64,000 nucleotides of DNA from Phreatobacter cathodiphilus (GTDB taxonomy: Bacteria > Pseudomonadota > Alphaproteobacteria > Rhizobiales > Phreatobacteraceae), in the NCBI RefSeq assembly GCF_003008515.1, contig NZ_CP027668.1, positions 558,001-622,000 on the forward strand, read 5' to 3'. Shown here one piece after another: positions 8,849 through 58,144 of this stretch. Every line of letters begins with the position of its first letter. The stretch's first letter is position 1. The position numbers were made by a program, and so were the translations under genes. The notes below the pieces were generated by a model that saw nothing but the letters and a program-made list of their open reading frames with translations, made no database searches and was not told the DNA's origin.

Positions 8849-9012
8849 CCACCACTCACGAGTGATCCCGCGCCGGCAACCCCAGTCGCCCCCCGCCGGC
8901 CTGGATCCTCTCGAGCGGGGCGGTCGGATCTCCATGTCCGGCCGCCTCGTTTTTCGGTGTTTTGCCGACCCCGTCTCGCACAGCGCCCGAGAGCCCGTGT
9001 AACATGCCCTCC

Positions 9013-43476: not shown

Positions 43477-43501
43477 CGGCGGCGCGTTCAGTGCGCCGCC
43501 G
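43477..43501. terminator. Shared hairpin between convergent operons
   Basis: 9-bp perfect stem (CGGCGGCGC / GCGCCGCCG) with a 7-base loop. It lies between the plus-strand oxidase operon and the minus-strand dehydrogenase operon and spans the stop codon of the latter. No T-run on either side. Confidence 0.45.
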
Positions 43502-44711
43502 TCTCCTTCAGCGTCTGGCGCAGGCTCCGCACGGTGTCCTCGGTCACCGGAGGGGCGTCGTTGCCCCAGCTCGCGCGCACATAGCTCGCCACGGCGGCGA
43601 TCTGCGCGTCCGTCAGTTTCCACGCGTAGGACGGCATGCTGAGCGGGGTCGGGCGGGCCTGGGTCGGCACCGAGCGCGCGCCTTCCAGCAGGATGCGGAT
43701 CACCGTGGTGGGATTGGGATCGCGCACCTTGTTCGAGCCGGCGAGCGGGCCGAAGAAACGCGGCACGCCCGTTCCGTCCGCCCTGTGGCAGGCGCTGCAA
43801 TTGTCCGCATAGATGGCCCGACCTGCCGTCATCACGCTCTCGGCGGGCTTCGTCGCCGCGCTGCGGGCGGGGCTGTCGAGGCTGCGCAGATAGACCGCCA
43901 TGGCCTTGAGGTCGGCCTCGGTCATGAGCTGCGTCGAATATTCGATCACCTCGGACATGATGGAGACGGCGGCCGTGTGGGCGTTGCGGCCGGTCTTCAG
44001 GTATTCGACGATCTCGGCATCCGACCAGTGGGCGATGCCGCCGTTGCGCCCGGCGCGGATGTCGGGCGCCGCCCAGTTGTCGAGCTCGCCGCCCTGGAGA
44101 TGGCGGCTCCTGCGGTCGGCGCCGACGAGGTTCTTGTCCGTGTGGCAGGCGCCGCAATGGCCGGGGCCCTCGACGAGATAGGCGCCGCGATTCCATTCCG
44201 GGGAGCGCGCCGGGTCGGGCTGGTACACCCCCGGCGTGAAGTAGAGCAGGTTCCAGCCGGCCATCAGCCGCCGCCACGACAGAGGGAAGGGCAGCGAATT
44301 GGGCGGCGACTCCTTTTCGACCCGCGGCAGCGCGGCGAGATAGTCGTAGACAGCGTCCACGTCCTGCCGCGGCATCTTCGTGAAGTGCGGATAGGGAAAG
44401 GCGGGGTAGAGGCGCTGTCCGTCCCGCCTGATACCCTGATGGACCGCCCGCCAGAAGTCGTCCTTGGTCCAGCGCCCGATGCCGCTGCGCTCCGCGAAGG
44501 TGATGTTCGGCGCGTGGATCGTGCCGAAGGGCGTCGGCATGGGCCGACCGCCCGAATAGGGCGCCTCTCCGGGTACGGTGTGGCAGCCCTGGCAGTTGCC
44601 GGTGGCGGCGATGTAGCGCCCGCGCTCAACCTGCGAATAGCTGGTCGTCTGGGCGAGGCCGGCGGTGGACAGCGCCGCGAGGGCGGCCGTGGCGAGGAAG
44701 AGCGATCTCAT
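43488..44711 (-). CDS. Triheme membrane-associated cytochrome c of a GMC dehydrogenase
   Basis: 407-residue exported cytochrome. Signal peptide ending STAGLAQT, then three class I cytochrome domains with haem sites CQGCH, CGACH and CSACH. This is the layout of the cytochrome subunit of gluconate, sorbitol and alcohol dehydrogenases. It accepts electrons from the flavoprotein encoded directly upstream (4-base overlap) and passes them to ubiquinone or an oxidase. Confidence 0.92.
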   Translation of the reverse strand: MRSLFLATAALAALSTAGLAQTTSYSQVERGRYIAATGNCQGCHTVPGEAPYSGGRPMPTPFGTIHAPNITFAERSGIGRWTKDDFWRAVHQGIRRDGQRLYPAFPYPHFTKMPRQDVDAVYDYLAALPRVEKESPPNSLPFPLSWRRLMAGWNLLYFTPGVYQPDPARSPEWNRGAYLVEGPGHCGACHTDKNLVGADRRSRHLQGGELDNWAAPDIRAGRNGGIAHWSDAEIVEYLKTGRNAHTAAVSIMSEVIEYSTQLMTEADLKAMAVYLRSLDSPARSAATKPAESVMTAGRAIYADNCSACHRADGTGVPRFFGPLAGSNKVRDPNPTTVIRILLEGARSVPTQARPTPLSMPSYAWKLTDAQIAAVASYVRASWGNDAPPVTEDTVRSLRQTLKETAAH

Positions 44712-46465: not shown

Positions 46466-46491
46466 CCGGAATGTCCTCGTCTGCAGGCGCG

Positions 46492-47229
46492 TCAGCGCGG
46501 GGTCCAAGCCGGGCCGCCCTTGAGCCCGACGGGCTCGAGGGTCACACGCTGGCCGTTGTGGTCGAGATAGGGGCGGTAGTCGTAGCGGGCGCCCGGAAAG
46601 CCCACGAGGCGCCAGCCCACCATGTCGCGGTTGCCGCCATAGAGCGGGTCGCAGAAGAAGCCCTCGATGGCGTTCTCGTGAACCAGGCCGAAGAAGGCCT
46701 TGGCGGGCACGCCGTCCGGCAGCTCGAACTCACCCTTTTCCATGGCCGCCAGCACGGAGTCCTGCGTCGCGGCGTCGAGGTCGGCGAAGACGCGGCCGCC
46801 GTGCCGCTCGCGACAGGCGGAATCCAGCGCCGCAATGCCCCGGCGGTAGAAGCCGGCCGGCGGCTCCTCGAACTGATAGCCCTGTTCCGGCGTCGACGGG
46901 CCGAAAGGGCCCTGCATGTACCAGCGCTCGCCGCGCCCGTAGAAACCGGCGAGCTGGTTGTCGATGAAGTCGATGACGCCGGCCTCGCGGGCGCCGGGGC
47001 CGCGGGCATCGCTGGGAATGAGACGCTCGACCATGGCGCTGACACAGCGCCGCTCCTGCGGGGTCAGGAACCTCGCGCCGTCGAAGGGATAGGGAGAATC
47101 GACCCGGCCGGGCGTCCAGGGCACATGACCGCGGATGGTTCGCGCCAGGCCCGGGGTCGCCGCCGCGGCGAGGGTCGCCGGGATGGTGAAGGCGAGAACA
47201 TGCCGTCGTGACCAGTCGCCCGTCGCCAT
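46492..47229 (-). CDS. Gluconate 2-dehydrogenase gamma-subunit-like protein
   Basis: 245-residue small subunit with a Tat-type signal (SRRHVLAFTIPATLAAAATP), expected because the folded flavoprotein partner is carried across with it. FLTPQERRCVSAMVERLIPSD and FFGLVHENAIEGFFCDPLYGGN are family motifs. Start ATG 47229 has AGGAGG six bases upstream. First gene of the operon, 29 bases from a perfect EcfG-type promoter at 47258-47283. Confidence 0.9.
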   Translation of the reverse strand: MATGDWSRRHVLAFTIPATLAAAATPGLARTIRGHVPWTPGRVDSPYPFDGARFLTPQERRCVSAMVERLIPSDARGPGAREAGVIDFIDNQLAGFYGRGERWYMQGPFGPSTPEQGYQFEEPPAGFYRRGIAALDSACRERHGGRVFADLDAATQDSVLAAMEKGEFELPDGVPAKAFFGLVHENAIEGFFCDPLYGGNRDMVGWRLVGFPGARYDYRPYLDHNGQRVTLEPVGLKGGPAWTPR

Positions 47230-47257: not shown

Positions 47258-47283
47258 AACGCGGGGTTCCGAACGGCTGTTCC
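47258..47283 (-). promoter_or_regulatory. EcfG-type promoter for the GMC dehydrogenase operon
   Basis: On the minus strand GGAAC (47283-47279), 17-base spacer, CGTT (47261-47258): a full match to the general-stress sigma factor consensus. The expected start of transcription leaves a leader of about 20 bases holding the AGGAGG site. Confidence 0.6.
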
Positions 47284-47359
47284 TGAAAAGCAGGGGTCCA
47301 TGGTGTCGCAGTGCGGGAAATCTCCTTCGCGCCCGGCGAGTGGAAAAATTTCCCCGATA

Positions 47360-47384
47360 GGAACCCCGGCAGGACGAGTCCGTT
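47360..47384 (+). promoter_or_regulatory. EcfG-type promoter for the 47417 gene
   Basis: GGAAC (47360-47364), 16-base spacer, CGTT (47381-47384); a perfect consensus match 32 bases before the start codon. It faces away from the similar promoter at 47258-47283, giving a divergent pair. Confidence 0.65.
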
Positions 47385-47416
47385 GTCCCCACACTGTCAA
47401 CGGAGGCTCTCCAAGA

Positions 47417-47788
47417 ATGAAGACGATCCTTTCGGCTGCTGCCGCTCTGGCGATCGCCGGCACGGCGGCACTCGCCCAGACCACCGCCCCTGGTACCACC
47501 CCGCCGGCTGCCCCGACCACGACCCCGTCGGCCCCGGCTCCCGGCGCCGGCACACCCTCCGCCCCGGCTGCGACCACGACGGCCCGCGCCGTCAACGCCG
47601 CTCCGCTGGAGAACGGCGCCAACAGCTTCACCGAAGGCCAGGCGAGCGAGCGCTTCCGCGAGGCGGGCATCACCGGCGTGACCGGCCTCGCCAAGGACGA
47701 CAACGGGGTCTGGCGCGGTCGCGGCCAGTACCAGGGCCGCTCCGTCGAGATCGGCCTCGACTACCGCGGCAACATCCAGGCCCGATAA
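47417..47788 (+). CDS. Exported PepSY-like small protein
   Basis: 123-residue secreted protein. Signal peptide ends near TAALAQ; a Thr/Pro/Ala-rich low-complexity stretch (about residues 22-55) links to a C-terminal domain of about 60 residues whose GVTGLAKDDNGVWRGRG and VEIGLDYRGNI recall PepSY-type repeats. Start ATG 47417 with GGAGG upstream. Expression is likely under the EcfG-type promoter just before it. Function unknown. Confidence 0.78.
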   Translation: MKTILSAAAALAIAGTAALAQTTAPGTTPPAAPTTTPSAPAPGAGTPSAPAATTTARAVNAAPLENGANSFTEGQASERFREAGITGVTGLAKDDNGVWRGRGQYQGRSVEIGLDYRGNIQAR

Positions 47789-47805
47789 CAGGAAAGATCA
47801 ATCAC

Positions 47806-48357
47806 ATGGAACAGTCAGTCACGGCGATCTTCGACACCTATGCCGCCGCGTCCCAGGCCGTCGAGCGCGTTCGCCGAGAAGGCGTCGCCGATCGCGACGT
47901 CTCCATCATGTCCAACGACACCTCGGTTGAGCGCTCCCAGTATGGCGACTACCGCCATGATGCCGATTCCGAGGCCGGCACGGGTGCCGGCACCGGCGCC
48001 ACCATGGGTGCCGTCGCCGGCGGAGCCGCCGGCCTGATGGCCGGCATGGGCCTGCTCGCCATTCCCGGCCTCGGCCCGGTGGTTGCGGCTGGCTGGCTCG
48101 CCGCCACGCTGGTCGGCGCCGGCGCCGGTGGAGCGGCCGGTGGTCTGGTCGGCGCCCTCGTCGGCTCCGGCATGTCCGAGGACGAGGCGCACGGCTATGC
48201 CGAGGGCCTGCGCCGCGGCGGCACCGTGGTGACGGTGCGCGTGCGCGACGGCGGCAATGCCGCCCGCATCCGGCAGGTGCTGAACGAGGGCTCGTACGAC
48301 ATCAACGAGCGTTCGCAGACCTGGCGCGGCGAGGGTTGGGCCGGCCGCTCGACCTGA
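47806..48357 (+). CDS. General stress protein with glycine-zipper membrane segment
   Basis: 183-residue protein. The N-terminus MEQSVTAIFDTYAAASQAVE resembles the general stress protein 17M-like/DUF1269 domain; a glycine-rich double hairpin (about residues 62-125, GAVAGGAAGLMAG, GAGAGGAAGG) can insert into the membrane; the C-terminal part (VVTVRV, RQVLNEGSYDINER) finishes the ferredoxin-like half. It is 17 bases behind the PepSY-like gene, so shares its stress promoter. Confidence 0.8.
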   Translation: MEQSVTAIFDTYAAASQAVERVRREGVADRDVSIMSNDTSVERSQYGDYRHDADSEAGTGAGTGATMGAVAGGAAGLMAGMGLLAIPGLGPVVAAGWLAATLVGAGAGGAAGGLVGALVGSGMSEDEAHGYAEGLRRGGTVVTVRVRDGGNAARIRQVLNEGSYDINERSQTWRGEGWAGRST

Positions 48358-48402
48358 TCCCTGCGACCACTGTGGCGGGGGAGGGCCCCCGTCGATCATC
48401 TT

Positions 48403-48434
48403 CGGCCCGGACGGCACGACGCCGCTCCGGGCCG
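48403..48434 (+). terminator. Hairpin terminator after the 47417-48357 operon
   Basis: 9-bp stem (CGGCCCGGA / TCCGGGCCG) with a 14-base loop that can pair further, followed by TTTCGTC, 45 bases after the stop. Confidence 0.5.
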
Positions 48435-48452
48435 TTTCGTCGAGACAGCCCC

Positions 48453-49025
48453 ATGGACCTTCTCGACCGTCTCCGCGACGGCTCCCTGGCTGATCCCGTG
48501 GCGCTGGCTTCCGCGCTGATCGGCTGGCACTTCACCGTCGACGGCGTCGGCGGCACCATCGCCGAGACGGAGGCCTACAGCCGCGACGACGCCGCGTCGC
48601 ACAGCTTCCGCGGCCCGAGGACGGCCAACGCCGCCATGTTCGGTCCGCCCGGAACCATCTACGTCTACAGGTCCTACGGTCTGCACTGGTGCCTGAACAT
48701 CGTCAGCGCCCCTGGTGCCGCCGTGTTGCTGCGGGCGCTGGTACCCACGGACGGTCTCGACGTCATGGCGGCGAGGCGGGGCGAGGGGCCCTCCGAACGC
48801 CTCTGCGCCGGGCCCGGCCGGCTCGCCCGCGCCCTCGGCGTCACCGGCGCCCACGACGGGCTCTCCGTCTTCGAGGCGCCGTTTTCGCTCCTGCCCCTTC
48901 TCGACGCTCCGACGGTGGTGTCGGGTCCGCGCATCGGCATCAGCCGGGAGACGGACAGGCCATGGCGGTTCGGTCTCTCGGGGAACCGATCGCTCAGCCG
49001 GCCCTTCCCCCCAAGCGGGCTTTAG
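48453..49025 (+). CDS. DNA-3-methyladenine glycosylase (AAG/MPG family)
   Basis: 190-residue base-excision repair glycosylase. Family motifs: the catalytic Glu in GTIAETEAYSRDDAASHSF, the minor-groove tyrosine region IYVYRSYGLHWCLNIV and LCAGPGRLARALGV. It removes alkylated purines such as 3-methyladenine and hypoxanthine. It stands among stress genes but has no EcfG-like motif directly in front. Confidence 0.93.
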   Translation: MDLLDRLRDGSLADPVALASALIGWHFTVDGVGGTIAETEAYSRDDAASHSFRGPRTANAAMFGPPGTIYVYRSYGLHWCLNIVSAPGAAVLLRALVPTDGLDVMAARRGEGPSERLCAGPGRLARALGVTGAHDGLSVFEAPFSLLPLLDAPTVVSGPRIGISRETDRPWRFGLSGNRSLSRPFPPSGL

Positions 49026-49049
49026 GAACGACCGCCGCAACGGATGGTT
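49025..49049 (+). promoter_or_regulatory. EcfG-like promoter for the manganese catalase
   Basis: GGAAC (49025-49029), 16-base spacer, GGTT (49046-49049): one mismatch from GGAAC-N16-CGTT. It overlaps the stop codon of the glycosylase gene and ends 30 bases before the catalase start. Confidence 0.5.
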
Positions 49050-49079
49050 GTTCCAGCATCCCGGCTCAGGAGAAGCTTC

Positions 49080-49991
49080 ATGTTCATGCGCATCGACAAG
49101 CTGCAGGTCGAGTTACCGGCTCCCAAGGCGGCCGACCCCAATGCGGCCAGCGCGCTTCAGCAACTGCTGGGCGGAAAATACGGGGAGATGTCGACGCTCG
49201 GAAACTATCTGTTCCAGAGCTTCAACTTTCGCTCCAAGTCCAAGCTTCGCCCGTTCTACGGTCTGGTTGCGGCGATTACGGCCGAAGAACTGGGCCATGT
49301 CGAACTCGTCAGCAACGGGATCGCCATGCTCGCCAACGGGCCCGACGACGAGATCGTCGGCCCGGGAGATCCGTCGGACGCGCCTTACGAGTTCATGAAG
49401 GACGTGCGGTCGGTCAGCGGCTTTGCCTCCCATGCCGGCGGCGCGATGCCGGTGAACGCCAACAGCATGAGCTGGAACGCCGATTTCGTAACCACCACCG
49501 GGAACGTGATCTTCGACCTGCTGCACAATTTCCACCTCGAGTGCGGCGCCCGTCTCCACAAGCTGCGCGTCTACGAGACGCTCAGCGATCCGACCGGCCG
49601 CGAGGTCTGCGGCTATCTGCTGGTTCGCGGCTCCGTCCACGCCCATGCCTATGCCCTGGCGCTGAAGCAGCTCACGGGTGTCGACATCGAGAAGATGCTC
49701 CCCGTTCCGAACATTCCGCTCGACCGCATCCCGGAATGCCAGAAGTATCTGGACGAGGGCTCGCACCGTCGCCTCTACACCTTCAGCGAGACCGACTATC
49801 GCGAGATCGCTGGCGTCTGGGCCGGCGAGGCGCTGCCGACCGATCCCGCTGGAGAGCTGGAGGTCGTGGAAGGCATGCCCGAGGGCGGCAAGATCCACGA
49901 CCTGGAGGGCGAGCCCAACGTCTTCGCTCCGGACTATGCGCCGGAGGAGATGTACGAGATCGCCGCCAAGCTGTTCAAGAAGTCCAGGTGA
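49080..49991 (+). CDS. Manganese catalase
   Basis: 303-residue dimanganese catalase of the KatN/YdbD type, breaking down hydrogen peroxide. Ferritin-like four-helix bundle with metal ligands in TAEELGHVEL and the second pair around FHLECGARLHKLRVYE and VRGSVHAHAYA. Start ATG 49080 with AGGAG eight bases upstream. An EcfG-like promoter ahead and a hairpin behind make it a single-gene stress unit. Confidence 0.93.
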   Translation: MFMRIDKLQVELPAPKAADPNAASALQQLLGGKYGEMSTLGNYLFQSFNFRSKSKLRPFYGLVAAITAEELGHVELVSNGIAMLANGPDDEIVGPGDPSDAPYEFMKDVRSVSGFASHAGGAMPVNANSMSWNADFVTTTGNVIFDLLHNFHLECGARLHKLRVYETLSDPTGREVCGYLLVRGSVHAHAYALALKQLTGVDIEKMLPVPNIPLDRIPECQKYLDEGSHRRLYTFSETDYREIAGVWAGEALPTDPAGELEVVEGMPEGGKIHDLEGEPNVFAPDYAPEEMYEIAAKLFKKSR

Positions 49992-50001
49992 CATCGCCTC
50001 G

Positions 50002-50028
50002 CTCCGGGCCGCTGCCGACGGCCCGGAG
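50002..50028 (+). terminator. Hairpin after the manganese catalase gene
   Basis: Perfect 9-bp stem (CTCCGGGCC / GGCCCGGAG) with a 9-base loop, ten bases after the catalase stop; no T-run. Confidence 0.45.
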
Positions 50029-50067
50029 ACTGCTCGTCGATAAACGTGTGTTAGTGCGCCCGGCTTC

Positions 50068-50418
50068 ATGAAGGGCCAACATTGCAAAATGGCTTCCCAC
50101 CGCAAAAGTCGCGAATTCTGGCTGAGACCTTTGATGGCCACAGCCGCGCCCGAGCGCCAATTCAGTCCCGGCGACTGGGTCCAGGTGCGCTCGGGCGGCG
50201 CACCTATGGAACTCGTCGGCTATGAGGAGAACGGCGACGTGCTCTGCAGGCTCGGCGAGCGAACCTTCGCCATGCCGGAGCTGCTGCTGCGCGCCCTCGG
50301 GGAAAAACCGCGGCGCCGCGGGCGCAAGCCGGGCATCAGCCCGGCCAAGTTGACCGCCGACTCCACGCCGGCCGCGGAGCCTGCCGGCGCCGAGGGGGAG
50401 GCCCGCGCAAAACAATAG
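50068..50418 (+). CDS. Small protein with DUF2158-like domain
   Basis: Up to 116 residues. The core (FSPGDWVQVRSGGAPMELVGY, split here as FSPGDWVQVRSGG and PMELVGYEENGDVLCRL) looks like the short beta-barrel of YodC/DUF2158 proteins; the tail is basic then Ala/Pro-rich (EKPRRRGRKPG). The start is uncertain: ATG at 50068, 50089 or 50134 are in frame and none has a good ribosome site. Function unknown. The stop lies in the left arm of a terminator hairpin. Confidence 0.6.
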   Translation: MKGQHCKMASHRKSREFWLRPLMATAAPERQFSPGDWVQVRSGGAPMELVGYEENGDVLCRLGERTFAMPELLLRALGEKPRRRGRKPGISPAKLTADSTPAAEPAGAEGEARAKQ

Positions 50419-50443
50419 CGCCGCCCGAACATCGGGCGGCGCT
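50417..50443. terminator. Bidirectional terminator
   Basis: Perfect 12-bp stem (AGCGCCGCCCGA / TCGGGCGGCGCT) with a 3-base loop between convergent genes. On the minus strand it is followed by ATTGTTTT, giving a good intrinsic terminator for the 50463 gene; on the plus strand only the stem is strong. Confidence 0.75.
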
Positions 50444-50462
50444 TCCGGACAAACCTGGTCGT

Positions 50463-50729
50463 TCAGCGCGAACGGCGCCGCATGCGCCGACGCCGGCGGG
50501 TGCGCCGCATGCGCGGAGCGACGGTCGGCGCGGTCGGATTGGGAGCGGCGCGTCCCCGGGAGGAGCTGCCCGCACCGGTATCCTGGCCGCCGCCGGCACC
50601 GCCGCTCCCGGCCCCGCCCGCCCCGCCTCCGCCAGCCTGCATCTCGATCGGGGCGGCCACGGCTGCGCCGGTCGCGGCCACTGCGAAGAGCGCGGCCGAG
50701 AGAGCGAAGAAATTCCGTCTGGTCTGCAT
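50463..50729 (-). CDS. Exported small Gly-rich protein with Arg-rich tail
   Basis: 88-residue protein. A signal peptide with twin arginines (QTRRNFFALSAALFAVAATG) is cut near AVAAP; the mature part is a Gly/Ala/Ser low-complexity stretch (about residues 32-55) ending in a tail with 12 Arg in the last 17 residues. Start ATG 50729 has GGAGG eight bases away (ATG 50732 also possible). It has its own EcfG-like promoter and terminator, which supports it being real. The charge suggests binding to nucleic acid, phospholipid or LPS, but this is a guess. Confidence 0.65.
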   Translation of the reverse strand: MQTRRNFFALSAALFAVAATGAAVAAPIEMQAGGGGAGGAGSGGAGGGQDTGAGSSSRGRAAPNPTAPTVAPRMRRTRRRRRMRRRSR

Positions 50730-50773
50730 CATGTTTCCTCCGGACCGGACGGGTTCGTCCGGTATGGAGGGAA

Positions 50774-50798
50774 AACGCGCCCGGTCACGCGATGTTCT
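50774..50798 (-). promoter_or_regulatory. EcfG-like promoter for the Gly/Arg-rich protein
   Basis: On the minus strand AGAAC (50798-50794), 16-base spacer, CGTT (50777-50774): one mismatch from consensus, 45 bases before the start. Confidence 0.45.
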
Positions 50799-50834
50799 TC
50801 AGCCGAGAGCGCGGCAGCCCTGCAGGACCCTTTT

Positions 50835-50859
50835 GGAACCGCGGGCGACACCGGTGGTT
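50835..50859 (+). promoter_or_regulatory. EcfG-like promoter for the 50892 gene
   Basis: GGAAC (50835-50839), 16-base spacer, GGTT (50856-50859); one mismatch. Divergent to the candidate at 50774-50798. Confidence 0.45.
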
Positions 50860-50891
50860 GCCGTCGCTCTCTCTCCAGCACGGACAGCGAC

Positions 50892-51119
50892 ATGGCCCCC
50901 TCCGACGTCTACCACCTCGCCGAGCTCGACCAGATGATCGAAAGACTGCGAGCCGATCTTCGCGACATCAGCGAGCGTGCCGCCAGCGCCGACGGGAACG
51001 CCAGTGAGGAGCGGCTCGCCGACATGCTGGCCACCCAGGAGGCGCGCCTGCAGGACCTGCTCGCCAAGCGCGAGGAGATCCTTGCCAAGGCGGAGAAGGG
51101 CGGGCGGGACGCCGGCTGA
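50892..51119 (+). CDS. Small coiled-coil protein
   Basis: 75-residue soluble, highly charged protein that is helical throughout (LDQMIERLRADLRDISERAA, then a second helix LQDLLAKREEILAKAEK). No ribosome site stands out, but coding-like composition and an EcfG-like promoter 33 bases upstream support it. Function unknown. Confidence 0.6.
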   Translation: MAPSDVYHLAELDQMIERLRADLRDISERAASADGNASEERLADMLATQEARLQDLLAKREEILAKAEKGGRDAG

Positions 51120-51155
51120 GAACCCGCCGCCCGGCGCCGGGAAAGGTGCCTCTGA

Positions 51156-51180
51156 GGAACAGCGTCTGTTGCCAATCGTT
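51156..51180 (+). promoter_or_regulatory. EcfG-type promoter for the DUF6894-Crp operon
   Basis: GGAAC (51156-51160), 16-base spacer, CGTT (51177-51180): perfect consensus, 54 bases before the ATG at 51235. Confidence 0.65.
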
Positions 51181-51234
51181 TCCCACGGGATGCTTCAATC
51201 ACACCAAATCCTTTCCGGCTCCGGAGTCGATGCG

Positions 51235-51498
51235 ATGGCGAGCTATCTCTTCGATCTCGATGAAGACGGGTCTTCCCTTCCCGCGGAACAGTCTCTCGAC
51301 TTTCCCACCTCTCAGGCGGCCTGCAGCGAGGCCGTCCGTGCCTTGAGCGAAATGATGGCGGAGACCCTCCTGTCCAACGGCCACAGCCGCTATCTCTGCA
51401 TCACCGTCCGCAACGGCGTGGGCGCCGCTATCTTCCGCGCCTCGCTGAAATATGACGCGCAGACGCTCTGCAGCGGTACGCGCCCCGAGCCCGAGTAA
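51235..51498 (+). CDS. DUF6894 family protein
   Basis: 87-residue protein: ASYLFDLDEDGSSLP at the start, a central helix (ACSEAVRALSEMMAETL) and a closing strand LCITVRNGVGAAIFRASLKY, the pattern of the short DUF6894 proteins abundant in Methylobacterium and Bradyrhizobium. Start ATG 51235 with GGAG eight bases upstream. Its TAA overlaps the ATG of the Crp/Fnr regulator by one base. Confidence 0.78.
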   Translation: MASYLFDLDEDGSSLPAEQSLDFPTSQAACSEAVRALSEMMAETLLSNGHSRYLCITVRNGVGAAIFRASLKYDAQTLCSGTRPEPE

Positions 51499-52226
51499 TG
51501 GCTGAGTCGCTCCTCCAGCCGCTGGTCGCCGCCCTGTCGGTTCGCGACGATCTCACCGCCGACGAGGTGCGGGCCCTTCACGAACTGCCGGTGCACCTGC
51601 GCTCATGCCCGCGCGGCTCGGAGATCGTCGCCGACCATACACGGCCCGGCCGCAGCTCCCTGGTGATCGAGGGCATGTGCGGGCGTGTCGTCCAGGCGCG
51701 GGAGGGACGGCAGATCACGGCCGTCCACGTTCCCGGCGATTTCGTCGATCTCCACTCGCTGCTGCTGAAGGTCATGGACCACTCGGTCATCGCACTGAGC
51801 GACTGCCAGGTCGCCGCGGTGCCGCACGGCCACCTCGTCGCGCTCGGCGAGCGGTTCCCCCATCTCAGCCGCCTCCTGTGGCTCTGCACCGTCATCGACG
51901 GTGCCATCCAGCGCAGCACGATCGCCAATATCGGAAGACGGTCGGCCATGCAGCGGCTCGCCCATCTCGTCTGCGAGCTCCACATGCGGCTGAGCATTGT
52001 CGGCCTCGCCGCGCCAAACGGTTTCACCTGCGCGTTCACCCAGACCGATCTCGGCGATATCCTAGGCCTGTCCGCCGTGCACGTGAACCGCACAATCCGG
52101 GACCTCAGGAACCGCAAGCTCCTGTCCTGGTCCGGCAGCCAGGTGCTCTTCGCGAGTTTCGAGAGCCTTGCCGCTTTCGCCGACTTCGACCCCACCTACC
52201 TCAACCTGCAGAAGGAACCCCGCTAG
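51498..52226 (+). CDS. Crp/Fnr-family transcriptional regulator
   Basis: 242-residue regulator. Beta-roll sensor (about residues 20-130), dimer helix and winged helix-turn-helix (FTQTDLGDILGLSAVHVNRT, about 178-197). The cAMP-contacting R-T/S motif is missing and no FNR-type cysteine cluster is present, so it senses neither cAMP nor oxygen by the classical means. It shares a perfect EcfG-type promoter with the DUF6894 gene and may act as a second-tier stress regulator. Confidence 0.88.
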   Translation: MAESLLQPLVAALSVRDDLTADEVRALHELPVHLRSCPRGSEIVADHTRPGRSSLVIEGMCGRVVQAREGRQITAVHVPGDFVDLHSLLLKVMDHSVIALSDCQVAAVPHGHLVALGERFPHLSRLLWLCTVIDGAIQRSTIANIGRRSAMQRLAHLVCELHMRLSIVGLAAPNGFTCAFTQTDLGDILGLSAVHVNRTIRDLRNRKLLSWSGSQVLFASFESLAAFADFDPTYLNLQKEPR

Positions 52227-52300
52227 CCCGGGCTCGGGCTTAACAAAAAGCAATCCACGTCGTCCGTCCCGCCGGTATCGTTCCCGGCGATGGAGGATGC

Positions 52301-53968
52301 ATGAGCATTCGGCGGCGCCTGTTCGTACTCGGTGGCATCTTTCTCGTTCCCGTCCTCGGGGTGGGGGCCTGGAACGAGTATGCCGACCATGTCGAGAGGG
52401 AACGGCAGGTCCGCGAGAGCGTCGCCCAGGAAGCCCGCTATGTGGCCTCCGAGTTCGAGCGTCTGCTGGACGGCGCGCGCAGTCTCGTCGAGACCATCGC
52501 TCACGTGCCGGTGGTCCGGCAGGGCGAATGGGCGGCTTGCGCCGAACTCCTCACCACCCTGCGGCCCTTCAATGCCGGGGTGCTCGCCCTGGCGGCCACG
52601 GATGCGGCCGGCACCGTCATGTGTGCCTCCGACCAGCCGGCCGGCGCCAGCCTGCCGTCGGTGGCCGATCGCCCGCATGTCCAGCTCGCCCTGCGGCAGG
52701 AGACCTTCGTCGTCGGCGGCTATGCCTACGGCCGCCAGACGGCGGGCCACGCCCTTCACGTGGCGGTGGTGCGCCGCGACGTCGCCGGCGCCGCGGCGGG
52801 CGTCGTCTTCGCCACCATCAGCCTCGACTGGATCGCCGGCCGCTACGCCCGCTCGTCGTGGAGCGAGGATCACGTGGTGACGGTCGCCGACGCCGACGGC
52901 AGGATCCTGATGCGCCAGCCGGATCACCACCGCTTCGTCGGCAGGGCCATCCCCGAGGCCACCTGGTCCGGCCTGCGCCGGCTCTCCGGCAACGGCAGTT
53001 TCGAGGATGTCTCACCGCTCGACGCGGTGAGGCGCATCGTCGGCTACGTCGCGAAGGCGGGCCCGTCCCCCGGCCTGTTCATCGGCGTCGGCGTCAGCCG
53101 TCAGAGTGCCTTCTCCGATCTCCATGCGGCCACCCAGCGCGCCGTTCTGGGCTCCCTCATCGGCCTCCTCGCCGCCTTCGGCTTCGCCTGGATGACGGCC
53201 CGCAACCTGATCACGCGACCGTTCCGCCAGATTCTCGGGGCGGCCCAGTCCCTCGCCGCCGGCAGGCTCGACGCCCGCTCGCCGGTCGCCGGCCGCGGTG
53301 AGTTCGGTCAACTGGCGGAGGCCTTCAACGTCGTCGCAGACCGGCTGACGTCGGAGATCCGCGGCAAGGACATGCTGCTGCGCGAGCTCAGCCACCGGGT
53401 CATGAACAGCCTGCAGATGCTCAACTCCACCGTCATCCTGCAGCAGCGCGCGGTGAAGGACGAGCGCACCCGGGAACTCCTCGGCCAGATCGGCGGCCGC
53501 GTCATGGCCATCGCCGAGGCCTATCGGCAATTGCACAGGGTGGAGGGGGAGGACGTGATCGATCTCGGCGATCTCATCGCCCAGGTCGCCGAACAGACCT
53601 GCCACTCCCTGCTCGCCGATGCCGGCCGGTGCCGCGTCACCGTGGCGCCGCTGACCCTCACTCCGGACAGGGCGATCCGCGCCGGCCTCATCGCCAACGA
53701 GTTGGTGATGAACGCCATCAAATACGGCGGCGGGCCGCAGGCCGCCGTGAGCGTAGACTTCACCTCCGAGGCCGGCTGCGCGGTCCTGACGGTCCGCAAC
53801 GGCAAGGTCGAAAGGGAAGGGCAGGCCGGTGGAGGATTCGGAACGCGCATGGTGTCCCTGCTGGCCACCGACCTCGGCGGAACAGTCGAGATGCGCGACG
53901 ACGCAGGCGATGCGGTCGTGACGCTCCGCTTCCCCGTCAGCTCGGCTCCCCTGGCCCCTGCTCCCTGA
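52301..53968 (+). CDS. Membrane sensor kinase of the HisKA_2 family
   Basis: 555-residue kinase. Two membrane helices (about residues 7-24 and 281-303) bracket a Cache-like periplasmic sensor domain; HAMP (about 304-355) follows; the phospho-acceptor is His365 in LLRELSHRVMNSLQML, the HisKA_2 form; then a HATPase domain with ANELVMNAIKYGG. HisKA_2/HWE kinases are the usual inputs to PhyR in the alphaproteobacterial general stress response. Start ATG 52301 with GGAGG upstream. No EcfG-like promoter directly before it. Position inside the stress-promoter cluster supports that role. Confidence 0.88.
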   Translation: MSIRRRLFVLGGIFLVPVLGVGAWNEYADHVERERQVRESVAQEARYVASEFERLLDGARSLVETIAHVPVVRQGEWAACAELLTTLRPFNAGVLALAATDAAGTVMCASDQPAGASLPSVADRPHVQLALRQETFVVGGYAYGRQTAGHALHVAVVRRDVAGAAAGVVFATISLDWIAGRYARSSWSEDHVVTVADADGRILMRQPDHHRFVGRAIPEATWSGLRRLSGNGSFEDVSPLDAVRRIVGYVAKAGPSPGLFIGVGVSRQSAFSDLHAATQRAVLGSLIGLLAAFGFAWMTARNLITRPFRQILGAAQSLAAGRLDARSPVAGRGEFGQLAEAFNVVADRLTSEIRGKDMLLRELSHRVMNSLQMLNSTVILQQRAVKDERTRELLGQIGGRVMAIAEAYRQLHRVEGEDVIDLGDLIAQVAEQTCHSLLADAGRCRVTVAPLTLTPDRAIRAGLIANELVMNAIKYGGGPQAAVSVDFTSEAGCAVLTVRNGKVEREGQAGGGFGTRMVSLLATDLGGTVEMRDDAGDAVVTLRFPVSSAPLAPAP

Positions 53969-53982
53969 CGGGTGCGCTCATA

Positions 53983-54007
53983 GGAACGGCGGCGCGCTCC
54001 GTCTGTT
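53983..54007 (+). promoter_or_regulatory. EcfG-like promoter for the CinA-type gene
   Basis: GGAAC (53983-53987), 16-base spacer, TGTT (54004-54007); one mismatch, 52 bases before the ATG. Confidence 0.45.
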
Positions 54008-54059
54008 GTTCGTTCAGGCCGGGCAGGGGCCCGCGCACAGGCGAGGCTGCGGGCAGACG

Positions 54060-54617
54060 ATGACGGATCTTGTAGAAGTGGTGATGGAGGCCTTGAGGGA
54101 CCGTGACTGGACCCTCGCGTGCGCGGAATCCTGCACCGCGGGCCGCCTGGCCCAGACGCTCGCCAGCGGACCCGGCGCTTCCAGGATCTTCCTCGGCGGC
54201 GTCGTCGCCTACACCCCCTCCACCAAGGAACGCGTGCTCGCCGTGCCGGCCGAGATGCTCGAGCGGCCGGAGGGCGCCGTCAGCGAAGACGTGGCAGTTC
54301 AGATGGCGAGAGGTGCGGCGGACTTGACCGGCGCCGATCTTGCCCTGGCGACCACCGGTGTCGCCGGCCCGTCCTCCGATGAGGAGGGAAACCCGGTCGG
54401 CCGCGTCTATATCGCCCTGCACGACGCCACGGCCGGTGACGCCGAGGGTGCCGTGCGGCGTTTCGATTTCGGTGACATCGGTCCCAAGGAGGTCGTGGAG
54501 CGCACCGTCGATGCGGCGCTCATCCTGCTCGCCGGCCATCTGGCGGCGCAACCCCACGAGCGATCGGCGCGGCAGGCCCAGCCGGGCCGCCGCAGCGGCG
54601 AGGGCGGCGGGTCGTGA
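54060..54617 (+). CDS. Nicotinamide-nucleotide amidase (CinA C-terminal/PncC type)
   Basis: 185-residue stand-alone CinA C-terminal domain. The catalytic serine is in CAESCTAGRLAQTLA, with GGVVAYTPSTKERVL and ATTGVAGPSSDEEGNPVG as further family motifs. It deamidates NMN to NaMN in pyridine nucleotide recycling. The last 25 residues (HERSARQAQPGRRSG) are a basic extension. An EcfG-like promoter lies in front and the stop codon is inside a terminator hairpin. Confidence 0.9.
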   Translation: MTDLVEVVMEALRDRDWTLACAESCTAGRLAQTLASGPGASRIFLGGVVAYTPSTKERVLAVPAEMLERPEGAVSEDVAVQMARGAADLTGADLALATTGVAGPSSDEEGNPVGRVYIALHDATAGDAEGAVRRFDFGDIGPKEVVERTVDAALILLAGHLAAQPHERSARQAQPGRRSGEGGGS

Positions 54618-54626
54618 CCCGCCGCC
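54603..54626. terminator. Shared terminator between convergent genes
   Basis: Perfect 11-bp inverted repeat (GGCGGCGGGTC / GACCCGCCGCC) spaced by two bases, followed by GTCTGTTC on the plus strand. It spans the stop of the CinA-type gene and lies seven bases from the end of the YciE-like gene. Confidence 0.6.
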
Positions 54627-54632
54627 GTCTGT

Positions 54633-55136
54633 TCAGGCCGCCTTGCGGTTGACCGCGCTGACGGCGATGTCGGTCAGCTTCTCGTCGGCCGCCTGCTCTT
54701 CCTTCAGCGTCTTCTCGAGTTCGGCGGCGCAATCAGGCCGGCCGAGCTGCCTGGCCCAGGCAACGAGAGTGCCGTACCGGGTCATCTCGTAGTGCTCGAC
54801 GGCCTGGGCGGCGGCGATCAGGGCTGCGTCGAGGACCCGCTTGTCCTCCACCTCGCCGGCCACCTCCTCGGCCTCCTCGATGATGCCGTCGATGGCCGGG
54901 CAGTCCTGACCCTTGACGGCGGCGCCGTGCATCCGGAACACCGCCTGCAGACGCGTGATATGGGTCTCGGTCTGCTTGCGGTGGTCCTCGAAGGCCTGCT
55001 TGAGCTGGGGATCGGTCGCCTTGTCGATCATGCCCGGCAGTGCCTTCAGGATCTGCTGCTCGGCGTAATAGATGTCCTGCAGCTGATGGACGAACAGGTC
55101 GTCCATGGTCTGGATGTCTTTGGAAAACCAACCCAT
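54633..55136 (-). CDS. DUF892 (YciE-like) ferritin-fold stress protein
   Basis: 167-residue four-helix-bundle protein. DLFVHQLQDIYYAEQQILKA opens the first helix; ligand-like Glu/His pairs recur in HRKQTETHITRL, EEAEEVAGEVED and AVEHYEMTRYG. YciE/YciF proteins are induced by osmotic and general stress. Start ATG 55136. An EcfG-like promoter is 35 bases upstream. Confidence 0.9.
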   Translation of the reverse strand: MGWFSKDIQTMDDLFVHQLQDIYYAEQQILKALPGMIDKATDPQLKQAFEDHRKQTETHITRLQAVFRMHGAAVKGQDCPAIDGIIEEAEEVAGEVEDKRVLDAALIAAAQAVEHYEMTRYGTLVAWARQLGRPDCAAELEKTLKEEQAADEKLTDIAVSAVNRKAA

Positions 55137-55170
55137 GACAGTCCTCCTCTGTGGTGGATGGTCTGCCAGA

Positions 55171-55195
55171 AACCGCTTGCGCCAGGCGATGTTCC
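55171..55195 (-). promoter_or_regulatory. EcfG-like promoter for the YciE-like gene
   Basis: On the minus strand GGAAC (55195-55191), 16-base spacer, GGTT (55174-55171): one mismatch. Divergent to 55212-55237. Confidence 0.5.
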
Positions 55196-55211
55196 TCTTG
55201 GGAGGGCGGAG

Positions 55212-55237
55212 GGAACCGGCCGACGCGCTGGCCCGTT
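55212..55237 (+). promoter_or_regulatory. EcfG-type promoter for the 55285 gene
   Basis: GGAAC (55212-55216), 17-base spacer, CGTT (55234-55237): perfect consensus, 47 bases before the start. Confidence 0.6.
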
Positions 55238-55284
55238 CCCTTGCCGAGGACCCGCGACGGGCCCCTAGCACGAGGAGGTGGAGC

Positions 55285-55518
55285 ATGACCGACGACCGCA
55301 TCCCGGGGTCGGAGGAGCCCCGGATCACGCGCCACAACGGTACCAAGCCCCAGGCGGGTGACGGCGCGTTCGCTGTCCCCGGCGCCGCCGGGCGTCCGGA
55401 CACGGGCGACCGCCGCGGCGAGGACTACGTGGAAAGCCAGCCGGGAGGCCGGCGCGACGACCTCGTGGATCGGGCCAATCGGCCGCCGGGGCGCCGGTCG
55501 GGCGGCGGGCAGGACTGA
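55285..55518 (+). CDS. Small hydrophilic disordered protein
   Basis: 77-residue protein rich in Gly, Arg, Asp and Pro with no hydrophobic core, so probably disordered. Strong ribosome site GGAGG six bases before the ATG at 55285 and a perfect EcfG-type promoter. It resembles hydrophilin-like stress proteins in composition only. Confidence 0.65.
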   Translation: MTDDRIPGSEEPRITRHNGTKPQAGDGAFAVPGAAGRPDTGDRRGEDYVESQPGGRRDDLVDRANRPPGRRSGGGQD

Positions 55519-55579
55519 GCGTCCAGGCTCTTCGGGTTACCGGCATACCGAGCCAATGTCGCCGCAGAACAGTTCGTTC

Positions 55580-55876
55580 CTACTCGCCCTGCGGCGTGCG
55601 CCCGTCGGGATGACTGCCGTCGGCGGGTCGGCTGTCGTGGATGAAGCGGTCGAGCATGCAGCCCGCCTCCTTGTGATCGCTGCGGCTCACCACCGCCCGG
55701 CCGCCGGCGGGGAAGATCTCGCTCTCCTCCAGCGACGCGTCGAGGTAGCCGTGCCTGGCCGCCCAGTCGTGGAAGGCGAGGCGCAGCGCGTCGTACCGGC
55801 TGAGGCCGGGGTGCTGCTCGGCGATGAAGGCGTCGAGCGCTCTCAGAAGATCTTCGGAAAGGAACCTGTCGATCAT
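55580..55876 (-). CDS. Small protein with ribbon-helix-helix-like N-terminus
   Basis: 98-residue protein. The first half (FLSEDLLRALDAFIAEQ, then LSRYDALRLAFHDWAARHG) resembles the strand-helix-helix unit of ribbon-helix-helix DNA-binding proteins; the second half is polar with a conserved-looking ESEIFPAGGRAVVSRSDH. AGAGG lies eight bases upstream of the ATG, and a perfect EcfG-type promoter 34 bases upstream. Regulator role is inference. Confidence 0.65.
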   Translation of the reverse strand: MIDRFLSEDLLRALDAFIAEQHPGLSRYDALRLAFHDWAARHGYLDASLEESEIFPAGGRAVVSRSDHKEAGCMLDRFIHDSRPADGSHPDGRTPQGE

Positions 55877-55910
55877 GCGTCAGCCTCTCGGGCATGTCGG
55901 ACGCGCGGTG

Positions 55911-55935
55911 AACGCGGCTGGGGCGCCGAGGTTCC
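55911..55935 (-). promoter_or_regulatory. EcfG-type promoter for the 55580 gene
   Basis: On the minus strand GGAAC (55935-55931), 16-base spacer, CGTT (55914-55911): perfect consensus. Confidence 0.6.
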
Positions 55936-55990
55936 CGACACTCGCCTTGTTGTCATCCTTCCGGAGGCTGCCGTGGGTTCGGCGAAGCGG

Positions 55991-56015
55991 GGAACTACAC
56001 CTCGCCTGAGGCGTC
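55991..56015 (+). promoter_or_regulatory. EcfG-like promoter for the 56037 gene
   Basis: GGAAC (55991-55995), 16-base spacer, CGTC (56012-56015): one mismatch. Divergent to 55911-55935. Confidence 0.45.
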
Positions 56016-56036
56016 TGTTGAGGTGAGGAGGCAGTC

Positions 56037-56396
56037 ATGGCCGATCGCATCGACGCACAGACGGAAAAGGCGAACCGCAGCGAGTTCGCCAACCAGTCGG
56101 AAGTTCCCCGCAACGACCGGGTGCTGCTCGAGACACCGGGCGGGACCAGTGCCGAGAAGGAGCCCGGCGAGGAGAGCCTCGTCGATGCCGAGGTCAGCGG
56201 CATCTCCACCGCCCGGCCCACGAGCGACGTCACCGGCGTCGCGGATTCCGGCACGGACGAGGAAACCTCGGACGGCCTCACCTCCACCGAGGAATCCCTG
56301 CGCCAGGCGGCGGAGGACACCCCGCTCGGCGAACGCGATCCGACGCTGGACGACGGGCCGGTCTTCGACCGGCACGACGCCCCGCCGCGGATCTAG
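56037..56396 (+). CDS. Small acidic disordered protein
   Basis: 119-residue very acidic protein (many Glu, Asp, Ser, Thr; few hydrophobics) with no recognised domain, likely intrinsically disordered. A strong ribosome site (GAGGAGG) precedes the ATG. Stop overlaps the end of the convergent antiporter gene by four bases. Stress-related by its promoter and neighbours; function unknown. Confidence 0.65.
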   Translation: MADRIDAQTEKANRSEFANQSEVPRNDRVLLETPGGTSAEKEPGEESLVDAEVSGISTARPTSDVTGVADSGTDEETSDGLTSTEESLRQAAEDTPLGERDPTLDDGPVFDRHDAPPRI

Positions 56397-57634
56397 CCGG
56401 GGCTCTGGGCGCCGTCCCGGCCCGGCGCGGGTAAGGCGCCGGTGATGCCGAGCAGGCGGGCGGCGAGGCCGATGGTCGGTCCCTGGATGACGCTCGACAC
56501 CACCACCACGAAAAAGACGATGTTGAAGATCGTCTGCGCGCCTTGGATCCCCGCAACGATCGGGAACGTGGCGAGGACGATGGGCACGGCGCCCCTGAGC
56601 CCCGCCCAGGAGATGAACAGCTTTTCCCGCCAGTGGAAGTCGCGGAAGGGCGCCAGGCTGACGAAGACGCTGAGTGGCCGCGCGATGAGCATCAGGACCG
56701 CAGTGATGGCGAGGCCCGGCCCCGCCACGGCGGGCAGTTGCGCGGGGAAGACGAGCAGACCCAGGGTGAGGAACATGACCACCTGTGCGAGCCAGGCGGC
56801 GCCATCCTGGAACAGCGAGATGGACCGCTTGCCCGGGAAGTCCTGATTGCCGGCCACGATCCCCGCGATGTAGGCGGCGAGGAAGCCGTTGCCGCCCGCA
56901 ATGCCGGCGAGCCCGTAGCCGAGCAGGGCGGCGCCCACCGAAACCACCAGCGCCAGACTCCCGACCTGAAGGCGCACGTGTCGCAGCAGGGCGGGCAGGC
57001 CCATCCCGACGGCCCAGCCGACGGCCGCCCCCACACCCATCTGGACGAAGAAGCTTGGAACCAGCCCCGACACCCCGGCGGCCGGCGCCGTGATCAGCAG
57101 GATGCCGGCGCCGACCAGGAAGATGGCCATCGGGTCATTGGAGCCGGATTCCAGCTCGATGAGCCCGCAGGCGCGGTTGTCGAGCGGCAGCCCGTGCGAG
57201 CGCATGATGGCGAAGACCGCCGCCGCGTCGGTCGAGGCGATGACCGCGCCGAGCAGGAATCCCTGCAGGGGCGTGAAGTCCAGGAGAAGAACCGCGGCGA
57301 CGGAGACCACTGCCGCGCTGATCGCCACGCCGACCGTCGCCAGCACGAAAGCCGGCCTTATCACCCCGCGCACCATCGACCAGTCGGTATCGAGCCCGCC
57401 TGAGAACAGGATGAAGACGAGGCAGGCGACACCCACGGCCTGCGCTGCCCCGTAATTCTCGAACGCGATGCCGCCCGGGCCGTCGGACCCGGCCACCATG
57501 CCGAGGGCGAGGAAGCCGATCAGTGCCGGGAGGCCGAACCGGCTGGAGAGATTGCCCGCGAGGACGGTGAGAAGGAGCAGCGCCCCGAGGGCGAAGAAGA
57601 GGAGTTCGGGGGAGGGGGATGCCATTCTGTCCAT
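56393..57634 (-). CDS. CPA1-type cation/proton antiporter (NhaP2/CvrA-like)
   Basis: 413-residue antiporter with about 12 membrane helices. IELESGSNDPMAIFLVGAG carries the transport-site ND/DP motif, and LLGAVIASTDAAAVFAIM and FISWAGLRGAVPIVLAT are family regions. Escherichia coli CvrA/NhaP2 has in addition cytoplasmic TrkA_C-type regulatory domains, which are absent here, so gating may differ. K+ or Na+ efflux for pH or osmotic balance is expected. Start unsure: ATG 57634, 57625 or 57688. No EcfG-like motif in front. Confidence 0.87.
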   Translation of the reverse strand: MDRMASPSPELLFFALGALLLLTVLAGNLSSRFGLPALIGFLALGMVAGSDGPGGIAFENYGAAQAVGVACLVFILFSGGLDTDWSMVRGVIRPAFVLATVGVAISAAVVSVAAVLLLDFTPLQGFLLGAVIASTDAAAVFAIMRSHGLPLDNRACGLIELESGSNDPMAIFLVGAGILLITAPAAGVSGLVPSFFVQMGVGAAVGWAVGMGLPALLRHVRLQVGSLALVVSVGAALLGYGLAGIAGGNGFLAAYIAGIVAGNQDFPGKRSISLFQDGAAWLAQVVMFLTLGLLVFPAQLPAVAGPGLAITAVLMLIARPLSVFVSLAPFRDFHWREKLFISWAGLRGAVPIVLATFPIVAGIQGAQTIFNIVFFVVVVSSVIQGPTIGLAARLLGITGALPAPGRDGAQSPG

Positions 57635-57822
57635 CGAGCGGGCGGACCCGCCCTCCGCAAGAGGAACTTGTGTGCCGGGGGTGGCCATTGTGCCGCAGGC
57701 CCGAGACGCCCCCTCCGGTGTCCATGCCGCGCTGAACGGACGTCAGCCGCTCCGGCCCGGCAAGCCCGCGACGACCGAACGCTGGCTCCACGCCGACCCT
57801 GTCCCTCGGGATTGCCGGACGG

Positions 57823-58083
57823 TCAGGCCGGATCGGGTTTGTTGGAGGTCCGGTCCGGCAGGGCGTCCACGGCGGCGTCGACGCCCTCGTCCTCGCCGGT
57901 CGCACCGCGCTTCAGGACCTTCGTCGCAGCCTCGTCCTTGGCGCGCGGATCGGTCTCCAGCGGGGCGGTGTCCGAAGTGGCCGTGAGGCCGACATCCGCG
58001 GGCTTCTTGCCGTCGGCGCGGGCCGCTTCGGCGAAGGTGGCGAGTGCTTCCGGCTGCTGGCCTTCGCTTTTGGCAGTGCTCAT
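57823..58083 (-). CDS. Small acidic disordered protein
   Basis: 86-residue hydrophilic protein (Ala, Glu, Asp, Lys, Thr-rich), start ATG 58083 with GGGGG seven bases upstream. TSDTAPLETDPRAKDEAATK and the C-terminal NKPDPA show no fold. Perfect EcfG-type promoter upstream, so a small stress protein. It resembles the 56037 and 55285 products in composition. Confidence 0.65.
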   Translation of the reverse strand: MSTAKSEGQQPEALATFAEAARADGKKPADVGLTATSDTAPLETDPRAKDEAATKVLKRGATGEDEGVDAAVDALPDRTSNKPDPA

Positions 58084-58119
58084 CGTCATCCCCCTGTGAA
58101 ATCGCAGCGTCGAGGGCCC

Positions 58120-58144
58120 AACGGTAAGGTCGGCATTATGTTCC
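58120..58144 (-). promoter_or_regulatory. EcfG-type promoter for the 57823 gene
   Basis: On the minus strand GGAAC (58144-58140), 16-base spacer, CGTT (58123-58120): perfect consensus, 37 bases before the ATG. Confidence 0.65.

Follow-up and report, generated by a model that had tools for sequence, protein, structure and literature searches.

Between 46.5 and 58.1 kb of a 64,000-nucleotide stretch of Phreatobacter cathodiphilus DNA (the window; positions 558001-622000 of a genome assembled as a single contig of 4,494,445 bp), small and stress-type genes stand behind a dozen candidate promoters of the kind used by EcfG, the extracytoplasmic function (ECF) sigma factor of the general stress response. 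We consider this region very probably a secondary island of the PhyR-NepR-EcfG general-stress regulon, assembled within the genus from promoter-plus-gene units. That it belongs to the regulon is indicated by the placement of the sites, by matching regulators in the same genome, and by conservation in the nearest relative. Positions below are window coordinates unless stated otherwise.

EcfG-type sites and their probable regulators

We defined the motif as GGAAC-N16/17-CGTT, calling a site perfect when it had no mismatch and otherwise allowing one. A sequence-only reading of the window had listed twelve such sites, six perfect and six with one mismatch, correctly oriented 20-60 bases before start codons and often in divergent pairs. 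All twelve are where it placed them (Table 1). Each is correctly oriented, with its -10 box 21-54 bp from the assigned start codon, and four divergent pairs hold eight of them (47258/47360, 50774/50835, 55171/55212 and 55911/55991). Gene calls rest on codon usage; for P94, DUF6894 and CinA we shifted the start upstream by hand, and P89, missed by a stricter caller, was entered by hand. The label of six mismatches holds against GGAAC and CGTT, but the published EcfG consensus is GAAC-N16,17-C/GGTT (PMC4814048), and four of the six conform to it. Ten of the twelve sites therefore match the consensus, and the remaining two carry TGTT and CGTC. EcfG-type sites are reported to lie up to about 100 bp ahead of the start codon (PMC6599016), as all twelve do here. 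In Sphingopyxis, up to 14 different -10 boxes accompany a near-invariant AAC at -35 (PMC7083833).

Both strands of the whole window hold 29 sites with at most one mismatch. The 17 beyond the earlier list comprise 11 within genes (one, at 48982-49006, lies 73 bp before the catalase gene), two that overlap the 55212 site, and four in gaps. The sequence-only reading had seen no site in the gaps it examined from 1 to 47 kb, which does not hold: there is a one-mismatch site (GGATC...CGTT) at 8926-8951, 52 bp before a gene at 9004, another at 40171-40196 on the minus strand (-10 CTTT), 168 bp before a gene starting at 40002, and a misoriented perfect match at 38130-38154, also on the minus strand. 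The last has no credible gene behind it; a small RNA is possible. The fourth gap site, at 55555, has no gene behind it.

The matching regulators are encoded elsewhere on the chromosome. NepR was found once, at genome position 4,224,980-4,225,084 on the minus strand (PF18557, 49.8 bits against a cut-off of 25.7). It is followed by an ECF sigma gene (ecfG) whose product has sigma-70 regions 2 and 4, and phyR, with PhyR sigma-like and receiver domains, is divergent; the locus lies at 4.225 Mb. A perfect site (GGAAC-N16-CGTT) stands 47 bp before nepR. Membership in the PhyR-NepR-EcfG system was judged by a nepR-ecfG operon that has its own EcfG-type promoter and is accompanied by a divergent phyR, and all of these are present; this is the usual layout (PMC4814048, PMC8103513). 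Together with the placement statistics and conservation below, this locus supports the interpretation of the sites as EcfG-type promoters.

The density contrast that the sequence-only reading expected of a whole-genome scan was borne out. Perfect sites number 108 across the genome, against 27 for the reversed pattern, and six of the 108 fall within 10.9 kb at the island. When 108 sites were placed uniformly in 20,000 simulated runs, at least six fell in some 11 kb in 0.075% of runs. We counted the genes that have a site, with no more than one mismatch, 10-80 bp ahead of them: 12/18 in the island, 1/44 in the rest of the window, and 8/323 in eighteen 20-kb background stretches over the genome (360 kb). 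The reversed pattern gave 0/18, 0/44 and 6/323 in the same count, so that the sampled background is near noise. With the published consensus the figures were 10/18, 0/44 and 5/323. As a genome-wide measure, we rejected totals of the reversed pattern: they serve in the window genome, but reversed exceeds forward in G003 (155 vs 104) and G008 (161 vs 123) and, among genomes of other families, in G066 (119 vs 57) and G023 (81 vs 75), so that in these four clusters are informative and totals are not.

Clusters of sites in this and other genomes

The sequence-only reading called the region a regulon island, which its placement and density bear out, but it is one of several. We defined runs as at least three perfect sites with gaps of at most 5 kb, among 97 listed sites after overlapping pairs were merged; eight further sites beyond the last listed one are outside this count. 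The runs are given in Table 1, and the largest among the listed sites, with 11 perfect sites in 20 kb, surrounds nepR-ecfG and phyR, while a cluster at 3.365-3.374 Mb equals the island with six. The second DUF892 gene, at the run of four, is 51% identical to the island's YciE-like protein. In all, 42/97 perfect sites lie no more than 5 kb from a neighbor, where simulation gives a mean of 19.7; the same test gave 33/95 vs 16.4 in G007 and 19/52 vs 7.3 on contig 1 of G066. For properly placed matches to the published consensus, the island (10/18 genes) exceeds the nepR neighborhood (7/21). Elsewhere in the genome, perfect sites precede stress-type genes, including a Ku/LigD-like set and an OtsAB-like pair, both named by eye with no family search. 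Known EcfG targets include catalases, Ku, trehalose genes and many hypothetical proteins, and the EcfG regulon of Sphingomonas melonis includes Crp-type regulator #0072 (PMC6599016, PMC4814048, PMC3892343, PMC7083833, PMC8103513).

Sites cluster around nepR itself widely in the order. For other genera, 20 of the 27 such genomes found were covered with 20 kb each (400 kb), and these surroundings of nepR held 89 perfect sites, between 0 and 10 per stretch; six control patterns gave totals of 2-16. In G008 the nepR locus has 12 perfect sites in 30 kb. That genome also has a second island (C1:6828000-6847999), whose 13 perfect sites in 20 kb are more than the window island holds. Dense stretches without nepR occur in the window genome (G000), G007, G008 and, apparently, G003 (eight perfect sites in 20 kb). 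For the two genomes of other families listed in full, G023 has a nepR cluster alone, and G066 has, besides its nepR cluster, a group of four sites in 1.4 kb on another contig and a group of three at 954-956 kb that spans 1.3 kb.

The known EcfG (ECF15) regulons of Methylobacterium extorquens, Rhizobium etli, Sphingomonas melonis and Sphingopyxis granuli share the motif, the regulators and the kinds of target with what we describe. The difference is that here a dozen promoters stand together about 0.87 Mb from nepR-ecfG-phyR (the short way, assuming a circular chromosome). The nepR-ecfG-phyR locus is likewise dense in sites, but the window island carries none of nepR, ecfG or phyR. No second island of this kind is described in the covered parts of the literature on EcfG regulons, and none of the titles and abstract openings listed concerned EcfG promoter clustering away from ecfG, in a coverage that leaves out most subscription journals; one literature search found nothing on Phreatobacter with stress response and sigma factor. 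The promoter system is already known, and a secondary island free of the sigma factor is a modest new instance of it.

Conservation and history of the island

The closest relative, G001, is 89% complete and in 480 contigs. There, the run from YflT to P88 and the ATP-binding cassette (ABC) transporter lie on one 11.6-kb contig in unchanged order, with an unrelated 266-codon frame where the window has its antiporter. P123-YflT lies at the end of another contig, and since the two partial YflT copies are identical across their overlap, the two contigs probably adjoin. All twelve promoters are kept in G001, with 104/108 motif letters identical (96%) and 111/194 spacer letters (57%), a comparison tilted toward the motif, since we looked for the best site in each genome. 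With a background of only 8/323 per gene, chance sites would nevertheless be rare. Unusual boxes recur: TGTT stands before CinA in three genomes (including G001 and G002) and CGTC before P119 in two (including G001). The 51156 site, which heads the DUF6894 run, stays perfect in G001 and G002. GDH3 and P123, which share a divergent gap here, each stand beside other neighbors in G001 with a perfect site of their own.

Across the genus set of the window genome and 11 others, the block as such is found in G000 and G001 alone. A DNA search recovered a piece of 7.7 kb in G001 and one of 3.4 kb in G002, with shorter matches scattered over most others; in G005, G010 and G011 it found, beyond the flanking transporter, nothing except fragments under 90 bases. 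The synteny check that the sequence-only reading proposed came out in its favor, with the DUF6894-Crp-kinase-CinA block and both its promoters in G002 in addition to the twelve promoters of G001. G006 has partial gene sets spread over three contigs. In G007, P123-YflT lies about 4 kb from phyR, within the nepR-ecfG-phyR cluster, and in G008 it lies with YciE inside the island of 13 perfect sites, about 0.83 Mb from that genome's own nepR locus. Orthologues were counted at 14 loci in seven congeners, with filters of 40% identity and half the query length. Elsewhere in the genus, 9/12 orthologues of site-bearing genes keep a site, against 0/11 orthologues of siteless island genes, a control that is not clean, since a 39%-identical Crp relative in G006, dropped by the filter, carries its own perfect site with no DUF6894. 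The filter also dropped P123, which has a site in five of six congeners; in the sixth (G002) it was called short. By this gene-order comparison, in which relatives hold subsets elsewhere, mostly with their promoters, and in which there is no sign of a mobile element, the earlier description of the island as assembled is supported, with the assembly placed within the genus.

It is also conceivable, though we think it unlikely, that the region came in as a genomic island by horizontal transfer and that its use of EcfG promoters is incidental. The restriction of the block to two of 12 genus genomes would fit, as would a third-position GC of 87.2% (17 genes) against 92.3% in the rest of the window (44 genes). 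The right-flank ABC transporter operon has other neighbors in 6/6 congeners (G004, G005, G006, G007, G010 and G011); in G006 it has, at a distance of about 6 kb, an orthologue of P88 with a perfect site. Manganese catalase occurs in just 7/61 genomes searched, counting the window genome; its only carriers in the genus are G000, G001 (97% identical) and G002 (34%). Outside the genus, the manganese catalase of G044 is 71% identical and has Crp-like and YciE-like genes (38-42%) next to it, but those 19 kb contain no perfect EcfG-type site. However, overall GC is nearly the same (69.1% vs 70.2%), the window's sole tRNA is at 9285, and a Pfam scan of 20 proteins found no integrase, transposase or phage family; the marks of a mobile genomic island (integrase or transposase, tRNA attachment site, clear shift in composition) are thus missing. 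Parts of the block moreover recur across the genus, alone or a few together, and in most cases their promoters accompany them.

A different ECF sigma factor with a related -35 box could instead read the sites, in which case the island would answer a specific stress and not the general response. ECF sigma factors generally share an AAC in the -35 box (PMC7083833), and the candidates would be the genome's other ECF sigma genes. Yet the full GGAAC-N16-CGTT also precedes the genome's own nepR-ecfG operon, and it is the motif reported for EcfG in Rhizobium etli (PMC3892343) and Sphingopyxis (PMC7083833), which makes this explanation improbable. That a short degenerate motif, with just nine fixed bases and one mismatch permitted, was read by chance into the intergenic DNA of a GC-rich genome we regard as practically negligible, given the per-gene counts of 12/18 vs 8/323, the 0/18 for the reversed pattern, and the promoters conserved in G001.

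Besides a possible part of other ECF sigma genes and the site-bearing Crp relative of G006, several points weigh against assigning the region to the EcfG regulon. The antiporter, P94 and the glycosylase lie in the island without a placed site, and the TGTT and CGTC sites are outside the published consensus. The YciE promoter of G001 can be read as N16-CGGT or N17-GGTT, with one mismatch either way (it was scored as 7/9 letters kept). CinA and P119 in G006 and P75 in G009 have no site. The kinase falls far short of its family cut-off, as described below, and the support as a whole comes from sequence comparison.

Products of the island and their possible roles

Pfam matches confirmed the earlier naming of the manganese catalase, the DUF892 (YciE-like) protein, CinA, DUF6894 and the Crp regulator (Table 1).

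Table 1. Genes and predicted EcfG-type promoters of the island (window coordinates), followed by runs of perfect sites in the genome (genome coordinates)
Feature	Position	Strand	Remarks
Cytochrome-c-like gene	43488-44711		Named by eye; likely GDH3 operon
GMC oxidoreductase	44708-46465		GMC_oxred match; likely GDH3 operon by spacing
GDH3, gluconate 2-dehydrogenase subunit 3	46492..47229	-	PF13618, E 7.8e-34; first gene of likely operon
EcfG-type promoter	47258..47283	-	Perfect, N17; 28 bp before 47229
EcfG-type promoter	47360..47384	+	Perfect, N16; 32 bp before 47417
P123, small secreted-looking protein	47417..47788	+	No Pfam/NCBIfam match; paired with YflT
YflT-domain gene (heat-induced stress protein)	47806..48357	+	PF11181, 31.8 bits (cut-off 26.2); 17 bp after P123, likely same operon
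MPG, methylpurine-DNA glycosylase	48453..49025	+	PF02245, E 1.7e-52; no placed site; 95 bp after YflT
EcfG-type promoter	49025..49049	+	-10 GGTT; 30 bp before 49080
Manganese catalase	49080..49991	+	PF05067, E 4.1e-65
P94, small protein	50134..50418	+	No Pfam/NCBIfam match; no EcfG-type site
P89, small Gly-rich protein, Arg-rich tail	50463..50732	-	Weak gene call; 82% identity over 72 aa in G001
EcfG-type promoter	50774..50798	-	AGAAC...CGTT; 41 bp before 50732
EcfG-type promoter	50835..50859	+	-10 GGTT; 32 bp before 50892
P75, small protein	50892..51119	+	No family match; relatives in G001, G004, G006, G007, G009
EcfG-type promoter	51156..51180	+	Perfect; 54 bp before 51235; heads DUF6894-Crp-kinase run
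DUF6894 protein	51235..51498	+	PF21834, E 1.7e-13
Crp/FNR-family regulator	51498..52226	+	PF13545, PF00027; start overlaps DUF6894 end by one base
PhyK-like HisKA_2/HWE sensor kinase, HAMP, Cache-like stretch	52301..53968	+	74 bp after crp; likely same operon
EcfG-type promoter	53983..54007	+	-10 TGTT; 52 bp before 54060
CinA (competence-damaged, amidase-type)	54060..54617	+	PF02464, E 1.6e-45
YciE-like protein (DUF892)	54633..55136	-	PF05974, E 8.1e-61
EcfG-type promoter	55171..55195	-	-10 GGTT; 34 bp before 55136
EcfG-type promoter	55212..55237	+	Perfect, N17; 47 bp before 55285
P77, small hydrophilic protein	55285..55518	+	GRAVY -1.45, Gly 18%
P98, small protein	55580..55876	-	No family match
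EcfG-type promoter	55911..55935	-	Perfect; 34 bp before 55876
EcfG-type promoter	55991..56015	+	-10 CGTC; 21 bp before 56037
P119, small acidic hydrophilic protein	56037..56396	+	No family match
Na+/H+ antiporter	56393..57625	-	PF00999; no EcfG-type site
P88, small hydrophilic protein	57823..58089	-	No family match
EcfG-type promoter	58120..58144	-	Perfect; 30 bp before 58089
Run of 6	605258-616120 (genome)		Window island
Run of 3	1014040-1019943 (genome)		
Run of 3	1030871-1033075 (genome)		Apparent Ku/LigD end-joining gene set, named by eye
Run of 6	3364870-3374189 (genome)		All 25-75 bp before a called gene; DUF892-looking and exonuclease-like genes, by eye
Run of 3	3756020-3756329 (genome)		
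Run of 11	4206520-4226160 (genome)		Around nepR-ecfG, phyR; HisKA_2 kinase beside ecfG
Run of 4	4256839-4260400 (genome)		3.6 kb; includes three of the eight further sites; one precedes second DUF892 gene

The island's kinase has both the kinase core and the sensor part that we looked for (HisKA_2, 3.5e-14; HWE_HK, 1.6e-6; HAMP, 1.3e-13), with a Cache match of 37.6 bits that is below its own cut-off of 45. Of the NCBIfam models, PhyK scores highest against it, aligned from position 4 to 536 of 537, but its 133.7 bits are far below the equivalog cut-off of 750, so that the target of the kinase can only be guessed. A part of the HisKA_2 kinase adjoining ecfG shares 30% identity with it across 229 residues. 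An EcfG-type operon appears to encode a PhyK-like kinase, which suggests feedback.

Eight small proteins (P123, P94, P89, P75, P77, P98, P119 and P88) had no Pfam or NCBIfam match at E 0.01, and all except P94 carry their own site. Hydrophilins have a grand average of hydropathy (GRAVY) under -1 and Gly over 6%. We dropped the idea that the small proteins belong to this class: P77 alone has these properties, P119 is near (-0.94), and P88 is less so (-0.73). The island's YflT and DUF892 (YciE) members exceed their Pfam cut-offs, and the proteins themselves show nothing unusual for these stress families. The gluconate-dehydrogenase-type operon (43488-47229), with its EcfG-type promoter, would be an unexpected metabolic member of a stress regulon.

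The pairing of P123 with YflT extends well beyond the genus. YflT relatives were found at no fewer than 496 loci in named alphaproteobacterial genomes; of the best 80 of these, 75 have a relative of P123 at 190-511 bp upstream of YflT. The highest identity to the query among these 80 is 84%, in a metagenome-assembled Phreatobacter genome. A perfect EcfG-type site lies within 900 bp upstream in 5/80; one-mismatch sites do so in more, a figure that has no control pattern alongside. Several Microvirga loci have GGAAC-N16/17 and then CATT, a variant -10. Beyond the genus, none of the 80 loci forms a dense island: three have three or four perfect sites and none has five, and the 1.38 Mb that they cover hold 52 perfect sites, where nine controls gave 10-38. 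By tblastn, other island genes are scarce at these loci (Crp relatives in two, kinase in one, YciE in one), with a relative of the flanking substrate-binding protein (SBP) in six, an EcfG-like match in five, and PhyR or NepR in none.

How would such an island work? Under stress, kinases would phosphorylate PhyR, which would then sequester NepR and free EcfG. Free EcfG, encoded at 4.225 Mb, would initiate transcription from the island's twelve sites, switching on the manganese catalase, the YciE-like, YflT-like and CinA-type proteins, the gluconate-dehydrogenase-type operon, and several small hydrophilic proteins. The DUF6894-Crp-kinase run would likely contribute a Crp-type regulator and a PhyK-like sensor kinase, so that the response would feed back or fan out, and if the kinase acts on PhyR, the island would feed its own activation. 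The island itself would have been built up within the genus from self-contained promoter-plus-gene units. It is tempting to generalize, and we do so tentatively: the general-stress genes of the genus may travel as promoter-plus-gene units that gather repeatedly into islands without the sigma factor, with species-specific content, selected for joint switching, one of which carries an EcfG-driven PhyR kinase and a Crp regulator and so raises its own response.

For the genus, the island offers a list of likely direct EcfG targets, and the seven family-less small proteins with their own site should be stress-induced. The two-gene module P123-YflT recurs across Alphaproteobacteria. More broadly, the island suggests that members of a global regulon in bacteria can be grouped locally.

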